Below are positions 16,309-22,035 of a DNA stretch of 36,032 nt, piece after piece (positions within the stretch are counted from its first letter, which is position 1; the number at the start of each line of letters is the position of its first letter). The notes under the pieces are model-generated. The model searched no databases. It saw nothing but the letters and a program-made list of their open reading frames with translations, and was not told the DNA's origin. The DNA is taken from positions 1 to 36,032 of the forward strand of contig CACYQQ010000052.1 of NCBI GenBank assembly GCA_902776605.1, in the 5' to 3' direction. The DNA comes from an uncultured Bacteroidales bacterium. Lineage in GTDB: Bacteria > Bacteroidota > Bacteroidia > Bacteroidales > UBA3663. Both the position numbers and the translations under genes were made by a program.

Positions 16309-16374
16309 AATATCGTCTGTAGGTGGTTCCAAATTCTGGACACCTACTTTTATTGTGTTGTGCAATTTTGTGTG

Positions 16375-16382
16375 CAAAGATA
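16375..16382 (-). promoter_or_regulatory. manC: -7 promoter box of manC
   Basis: The complement reads TATCTTTG followed by CAC, a good TAnnTTTG box, giving a leader of about 75-80 bases. The -33 element is not exact. Together with the box at 16456 it forms a divergent promoter pair. Confidence 0.55.
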
Positions 16383-16432
16383 GCGAAAAATGACTAAAAA
16401 CGTGCTAAAATTGAAAAAAATATGATTTTTTC

Positions 16433-16463
16433 TTGTCAGTTTCATTTAAAATATGTATCTTTG
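16433..16463 (+). promoter_or_regulatory. Promoter of the rimP-nusA-infB operon
   Basis: TTG at 16433-16435 is followed after 20 bases by TATCTTTG at 16456-16463 and then CATCGG. This fits the Bacteroidetes consensus. Transcription would start near 16470, giving a leader of almost 290 bases before rimP. Confidence 0.72.
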
Positions 16464-16477
16464 CATCGGAAATGAGT

Positions 16478-16516
16478 GAAGAGAGGCGCTACTTACAGCG
16501 TTTCTCTTCAGTTTTT
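16478..16516 (+). promoter_or_regulatory. Attenuator-like hairpin at the start of the rimP leader
   Basis: GAAGAGAGGCGCT (16478-16490) pairs with AGCGTTTCTCTTC (16497-16509) over 12 to 13 positions with minor mismatches, and AGTTTTT follows directly. It has the form of an intrinsic terminator placed some ten bases after the predicted transcript start, so it may attenuate the operon. Confidence 0.55.
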
Positions 16517-16522
16517 AATAAA

Positions 16523-16594
16523 GGACCCTCTCCCCGTTCTTCTCGCAGAAGGTTATCAACCTTCCGCTGCGAGGACCCCCATAATGGGGAGGAG
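16523..16594. repeat. ATC-loop hairpin element, copy A
   Basis: The element has nested stems. The outer one pairs CCTCTCCCC near 16526-16534 with GGGGAGGAG near 16587-16595, allowing small mismatches. The middle one pairs CTCGCAG with CTGCGAG, and the inner one pairs AAGGTT with AACCTT around ATC. It is the best-preserved copy of the three. Confidence 0.78.
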
Positions 16595-16609
16595 ATTATA
16601 ATGAAACAA

Positions 16610-16745
16610 TTAGCGCGGTTTGCTAAGTGAAAATTATAGTGGGGAATAGCTTTAGTGCCGAAGGCCATTAGCGTGCGAAGCACTTTTAGCGACTCGAAGA
16701 GTCATTTAGCGATTCTTCAAAAGGAGAGTCTTTTAGCGAATCCTG
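16610..16745 (+). promoter_or_regulatory. TTAGYG mini-hairpin row in the rimP leader
   Basis: A row of short stems follows one another, each introduced by TTAGT or TTAGC: TTAGC/GCTAA (16610-16626), GCC-GAA-GGC (16657-16665), GTGC-GAA-GCAC (16673-16683), GACTC-GAA-GAGTC (16691-16703) and GATTCTTC-AAAA-GGAGAGTC (16711-16730), ending with TTAGCGAATCC. The three central hairpins all have a GAA loop with different stems. The row ends just before the rimP start codon. A nine-codon frame (ATG 16601 to TGA 16630) overlaps its beginning but I would not call it a gene. Confidence 0.7.
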
Positions 16746-16757
16746 AAATAAATTCGT

Positions 16758-17246
16758 ATGATTAACAAGCAAGACATAATTGATTTGGTGGACCAGTTCC
16801 TGCTGGAGACCGAAAGTGAGAGTTTCCTGGTGGACGTCACGGTGAGCCGCGACAACCAGATTGTGGTCGAGATTGACAACGACGAGGCCGTCGATATAGA
16901 CGAGTGCGCCGCCATTAGCCAGTACATCGACCAACACATGGACCGCGACAAGGAGGACTTCGAACTGGAGGTGGGCAGTGCCGGACTGACATCGCCCCTC
17001 AAGGTCTTGCGCCAATACGCCAAGTTCGAAGGCGAGGAGGTGGAGGTGCTCTTGCGCGACGGCCATAAGTTGACCGGCACCCTGGGCGCTGCCGACGAGG
17101 AGGGATTTGACCTGCACTGGGTGACTATGGAAAAGGTGGTCGATCCGGCTACAGGCAAGCCCAGCAAAAAGAAACAGGAGGTGCAGCACGATGAACATCT
17201 GAAGCACTCCGACGTGAATCAAGTAAAATATATTATTAATTTCTAA
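16758..17246 (+). CDS. rimP: Ribosome maturation factor RimP
   Basis: RimP helps assemble the 30S subunit. The 162-residue protein has the two expected domains: an N-terminal alpha/beta domain (residues about 1-80, with VDVTVSRDNQIVVEIDNDEAVDIDEC, and FELEVGSAGLTSPLK, the conserved SPG-like region in its Bacteroidetes form) and a C-terminal Sm-like barrel (FEGEEVEVLLRDGHKLTGTL). Its position directly before nusA and infB is conserved in most bacteria and confirms the call. The start is the ATG at 16758; no Shine-Dalgarno sequence is visible, which is normal for this phylum. Confidence 0.92.
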   Translation: MINKQDIIDLVDQFLLETESESFLVDVTVSRDNQIVVEIDNDEAVDIDECAAISQYIDQHMDRDKEDFELEVGSAGLTSPLKVLRQYAKFEGEEVEVLLRDGHKLTGTLGAADEEGFDLHWVTMEKVVDPATGKPSKKKQEVQHDEHLKHSDVNQVKYIINF

Positions 17247-21939: not shown

Positions 21940-22035
21940 GACCCTCTCCCCAGTTTCTCCCCTCGGCTGAAGCCTCGTCTTCTCGCTGAAGGTTATCAAC
22001 CTTCAACTGTGAGGACCCCCGTAATGGGGAGGGAG
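21940..22035. repeat. ATC-loop hairpin element, copy B
   Basis: This copy has the outer CCCTCTCCCC / GGGGAGGGAG stem, an extra segment with CTCGGCTGAAGCCTCG, and the inner GAAGGTT / AACCTTC stem with the ATC loop. From TCTCGCTGAAGG to CCCCCGTAATGGGGAGG it is nearly identical to copy A. It occupies almost the entire gap between cvpA and rnhB. Confidence 0.78.

Follow-up and report, generated by a model that had tools for sequence, protein, structure and literature searches.

Does the row of short hairpins in front of rimP in this uncultured Bacteroidales bacterium act on its own operon as a leader RNA, or did it reach that position as a copy of something more widespread? The original prediction, made from the letters of the window alone (the whole 36,032-nt stretch of DNA analysed here), favoured a regulatory element of the rimP-nusA-infB leader and named a mobile or expanding repeat as the alternative. 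Our comparisons showed that the row is a copy of a dispersed non-coding DNA repeat, present at the rimP leader in one species alone.

The hairpin row and its dispersed copies

Direct reading of the window sequence located five hairpins introduced by TTAGYG at 16651-16756 (this and the other features of the window described here lie on the + strand), with a GAA loop in three of the five. The first three, TTTAGT-GCC-GAA-GGC (16657-16665), TTAGC-GTGC-GAA-GCAC (16673-16683) and TTTTAGC-GACTC-GAA-GAGTC (16691-16703), have perfect stems, each different from the others. The fourth (16711-16730; TTTAGC-GATTCTTC-AAAA-GGAGAGTC) includes two T-G pairs, and the fifth, which is weaker (16737-16756; TTTTAG-CGAAT-N10-ATTCG), abuts the start codon, stopping one base short of the rimP ATG at 16758. 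An additional inverted repeat, TTAGC-GCGGTTT-GCTAA, was read at 16610-16626, and downstream of the row come rimP (NCBIfam PRK02001), nusA and infB. The row with its three GAA loops was therefore present as originally predicted and, in its first three hairpins, so were the fully different, perfectly paired stems. The folding energy of the row was unremarkable (z = -0.62 as RNA and -0.93 as DNA); as these scores are uninformative, the case for the row was built on its repeat family and on covariation.

Two repeat families were recognized at this site. Family B is represented by a three-hairpin unit at 16651-16709, with GAA loops and the linkers TTTAGT, CATTAGC, TTTTAGC and ATTTAG, of which the own genome (G000) carries tens of copies. 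Family A is a nested palindrome at 16520-16592 (CTCCCC..CTCGCAG-AAGGTT-atc-AACCTT-..CTGCGAG..GGGGAG); some ten further copies, all partial, were found in the own genome, with stems that vary yet remain paired. Another copy occupies the gap after a CvpA-like gene at 21978-22032 (E = 2.5e-15). Downstream of the three-hairpin unit, several loci (L121, L122, L168 and others) also contain TTAACTCC-ACAGCC-GCA-GGCTGT-TAACTCC, in which the linker is constant and both stem and loop vary. The hairpin units in some gaps of the own genome (e.g., L123, L176, L187) have AT-rich strings resembling a satellite (ATTGATAATTGACAATTGATA) and blocks of ATTCCGAGTTTTCCGATTACTCC beside them.

A 242-nt query found 48 further matches in the own genome, mainly to its part 135-195 (window 16650-16710) and in some cases to part 5-84, with a best non-self DNA match of E = 6e-20. 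Similarly, the pattern TTAGYGN{6,24}TTTAGYG matched 71 times in this genome, compared with nine matches for the reversed pattern, and the closest relative, a sister species (G009), had 35 TTAGYG pairs against two in the reversed control. Among the 15 genomes covered, all of this genus, to which the comparison within the GTDB family was confined, only these two exceeded the control. Some of the 393 genomes of the order also did so; the matches listed looked like other repeats, and none of them resembled variable hairpin arrays. An unrelated dispersed repeat, TTTAGCG-N9-12-TTTTTAGCG, was observed in other Bacteroidales families (G198, G259, G313, G326 and others). A search of viral contigs with two exact array patterns returned no match.

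None of the 61 arrays (50 from the own genome and 11 from the sister species) fell within a gene as predicted by a simple codon-usage script. In the own genome, most copies consist of the three-hairpin unit within varying flanking blocks. In the arrays of the sister species, several hairpins that differ from one another are spaced by [AT]TTTAGC or TTTATC/TTTAAC; these arrays face outward on both sides of a centre and end near the neighbouring stop or start codons. The gap between the DUF1846 gene and purC is short and hairpin-free in five relatives (G002, G004, G008, G010 and G012) and holds arrays in both sister species, where linkers (ATTAAC-A..T vs TTTTAGC-G..C) and stems differ between the two. 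The genome search for TTAGYG modules that had been proposed as a check yielded scattered arrays in the two sister species, and no leader-bound set in the relatives with a readable leader.

Paired variation, loops and strand

Over 49 distinct copies from the own genome, the third hairpin kept 229 of 245 base pairs, compared with 190.6 ± 3.7 when its arms were shuffled (maximum of 207 in 5000 shuffles); this comparison serves as a guide rather than a probability, because the copies are related and the hairpin end was picked by best pairing. Six fully paired stems were found, with the GACTC/GAGTC stem of the window representing a double change from GGCTC/GAGCC. The idea that structure rather than sequence is maintained was borne out. 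Mismatches in this hairpin comprised five G-T and eight A-C, and since G-T was not favoured over A-C, the pairing appears to be maintained at the level of DNA, with no RNA wobble preference. In a further module with tandem G-A/A-G mismatches in a Y-GA-R context, the mismatches were retained while the flanking pairs changed in step (GTGAAC/GTGAAC, GTGAGC/GCGAAC, ACGAAC/GTGAGT and ATGAGC/GCGAAT).

With regard to the loops, distinct triloops in the arrays of the sister species, read on the linker strand, were GNA in 8/18 cases, TNC in none (0/18) and otherwise non-GNA in 10/18. According to the passage of PMC6479982 that cites Hirao 1994 and Yoshizawa 1997, GNA loops give exceptionally stable mini-hairpins in single-stranded DNA (ssDNA), d(GCGAAGC) being one example; the second hairpin of the row contains exactly GCGAAGC, and GNA loops are frequent in the repeat. 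That passage treats d(GNA) mini-hairpins as a chemical motif, and a role for them in the TTAGYG repeat is what we would propose.

The repeat is dispersed and modular, is confined to two sister species and has no counterpart at the equivalent site in relatives, and its stems show covariation. We consider it the best explanation, with a probability of roughly 0.6, that it is a non-coding, intergenic, REP/BIME-like mosaic repeat, which was inserted or expanded in this species' rimP leader and is recognized as folded ssDNA. Its active form would be a folded single strand reading TTTTAGC-hairpin, recognized by a constant foot (the TTARC linker) together with a small loop, often GNA, whereas the stem would need only to stay paired. 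Stems could then drift in matched pairs, and a putative single-strand-specific nuclease or transposase of the HUH Y1 kind may spread or recombine the copies. The row itself would be dispensable for rimP regulation, but it does lengthen the leader, and the start codon now directly follows a weak hairpin.

An element acting at the level of RNA, in which the hairpins are weak mRNA terminators or stabilisers and selection for RNA pairing gives the covariation, would account for the TTT that follows each hairpin on the linker strand, in a hairpin-TTTT order. It would also fit the position of the arrays, as 32 of 46 in the own genome follow a co-oriented gene (p = 0.011, on copies that are not independent), which a role at mRNA 3' ends would produce likewise. 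However, some arrays have the opposite orientation, and both orientations are found within one gap, an arrangement that fits a folded ssDNA substrate better than an mRNA, while the outward-facing arrays of the sister species are unsuited to any one mRNA. Moreover, arrays precede start codons, that of rimP among them, and a terminator in such a place would do harm; neither the mismatch counts nor the folding, which is no more stable than that of shuffled sequences, favours RNA. We consequently judged this explanation unlikely.

Neutral expansion, in which slippage duplicates units and template switching erases arm mismatches (quasi-palindrome correction) with no recognizer involved, would generate tandem arrays, mosaic flanks and strongly paired yet variable stems. 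Nevertheless, such correction should remove the tandem G-A mismatches, which persist while the surrounding pairs change in step, and it leaves both the one-sided GNA loops and the constant linker unexplained; we placed it next in order, as a further improbable account.

The insertion in the rimP leader and the hairpin upstream of it

By aligning window positions 16373-16517, and those from 16758 onward, to the locus of the sister species (L002 2144-2000, and 1986 downward), we defined an insertion at 16518-16757, where local alignment leaves 240 nt in the window vs 14 nt in the sister species. The insertion separates a conserved hairpin of the leader from the start of rimP, is partly filled by the row, and is composed of families A and B, which have dozens of further copies in the own genome. 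Neither an exact insertion boundary nor a target duplication was found. No listed ORF lies wholly within the insertion, which merely overlaps ORF ends, and in this it differs from an IS200/IS605 or TnpA_Y1 element, which encodes a Y1 HUH transposase.

Besides the own genome, 14 genomes of the genus were compared, and 13 of them gave a RimP match. Twelve of these 13 have the promoter and the leader hairpin but no row; neither a promoter nor a leader hairpin of this kind was seen in the remaining one, G002. The proposal of an element belonging to the rimP-nusA-infB leader was not sustained by this distribution, with dozens of copies in other gaps. The original prediction had itself associated modules missing from related leaders and scattered over other gaps with a repeat without regulatory role; this is the pattern that we observed, and the alternative of a mobile or expanding repeat matches the data.

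The conserved part of the leader lies upstream and outside the repeat. It comprises a promoter-like site of the Bacteroidetes type (TAtcTTTG; 16433-16463), with TAnnTTTG preceding rimP in 13 of 14 genus leaders, and a terminator-like hairpin at 16477-16510, followed by GTTTTTAATA, which has a folding z-score of -5.79 and was found in 13 genus leaders. Parabacteroides relatives have a G-rich/C-rich hairpin with a T-rich tail at a similar position. The rimP-leader attenuator (PMC2965389) likewise precedes this operon, and the hairpin agrees with it in position and in its T-run form, the conserved T-run terminator being a feature of the hairpin and not of the TTAGYG row, which is absent in relatives. 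The stem differs: the GGGc(...)gCCC motif of the attenuator has a near-match in the Parabacteroides group (GGGGGC...GTCCCC) and is changed in this genus, where the stem of the window reads GAGAGGCGC/GCGTTTCTC. Rfam gave no match anywhere in the window at gathering level, and none to the leader even with E values of up to 1. The hairpin at 16477-16510 is apparently a divergent rimP-leader attenuator and the likely regulatory element here. Autoregulation, as originally suggested, is therefore plausible for the operon by way of this upstream hairpin, but not through the row.

A regulatory RNA specific to the operon and formed by the row, for which its location between promoter and rimP and the repression of this operon by its own product NusA in E. 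coli (work cited in PMC2965389) could speak, is very improbable, given that the row is missing in every relative with a readable leader and present in dozens of unrelated gaps, with the conserved attenuator-like hairpin upstream of it.

Relation to REP elements and Y1 transposases

Like REP/BIME elements, the TTAGYG repeat consists of short, intergenic, high-copy palindromes with a constant foot and a strand-specific loop, in inverted or mosaic composites, here the outward-facing arrays and mosaic flanks. TnpA_REP enzymes (RAYTs) of the perfect-palindrome group require a foot motif, specific bases in the loop and a stem free of mismatches, and changes in stem sequence have moderate effects (PMC8266576); the constant foot, restricted loop and free but paired stems of the arrays follow this same pattern. 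In contrast to REP/BIME elements, the foot is of the TTARC type (TTAGC/TTAAC/TTATC) instead of GTAG/GGAG or CGTC, stems are hypervariable among neighbouring units, and no cognate TnpA_REP gene bordered by these repeats was found beside the family. Nor did we find a transposase gene whose ends carry the TTTTAGC linker.

The own genome does encode, at G000:C2:30444-30896, a 151-aa protein of the Y1 subclass 1.2 type (Y-x3-Q-x2-HH). On both sides of this gene lie inverted hairpins that are unlike one another, pair perfectly and have GNA/AAC loops. Inverted sets of this kind flanked all 30 such Bacteroidales loci (L202-L231), with two or more triloop hairpins within 250 nt in every one and the Y-x3-Q-x2-HH signature in 28. 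Hairpin density was 11.7 per kb near the gene vs 1.7 per kb far from it, and orientation was 54:8 upstream and 17:44 downstream, over 49 distinct stems. Loops were GNA/AAC or their complements in 123/138 cases near the gene vs 25/41 beyond 500 nt, where this class is also enriched, perhaps owing to further hairpins. Similar clusters with no Y1 gene on the same stretch occurred in the two sister species and were absent from about 630 kb sampled from eight further genomes of the genus.

In PMC6006769, subclass 1.2 is described as generally lacking typical terminal IS200 structures, and no REPs are listed for it; the own gene, by contrast, has hairpin flanks, in which linkers differ from those of the TTAGYG arrays and spacers are longer. 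Three relatives (G003, G004 and G006) have a Y1 gene and no TTAGYG arrays, and no such arrays adjoin the PF01797 genes of the genus (the own assembly being about 80% complete). The genus's own Y1 genes were rejected as a direct source of the arrays on this ground.

More tentatively, the arrays and the Y1 flanks might belong to a single class of ssDNA hairpin repeats, recognized by an unchanging foot and a triloop of the GNA/AAC type while stems drift as pairs, with Y1 subclass 1.2 as the enzymes and the TTAGYG arrays as a satellite family; we regard this as possible, though doubtful. Because repeat finders seek conserved sequence, they can easily overlook a repeat in which just linker, loop and pairing are kept, and this may be why no flanking hairpins were reported for subclass 1.2. 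For leader analyses, the locus calls for caution, as paired variation in a leader alone is no proof of an RNA regulator. Y1 subclass 1.2 is neglected and widespread in Bacteroidales, and if the foot-and-loop rule holds, it would give this orphan nuclease family a recognition code that can be tested.
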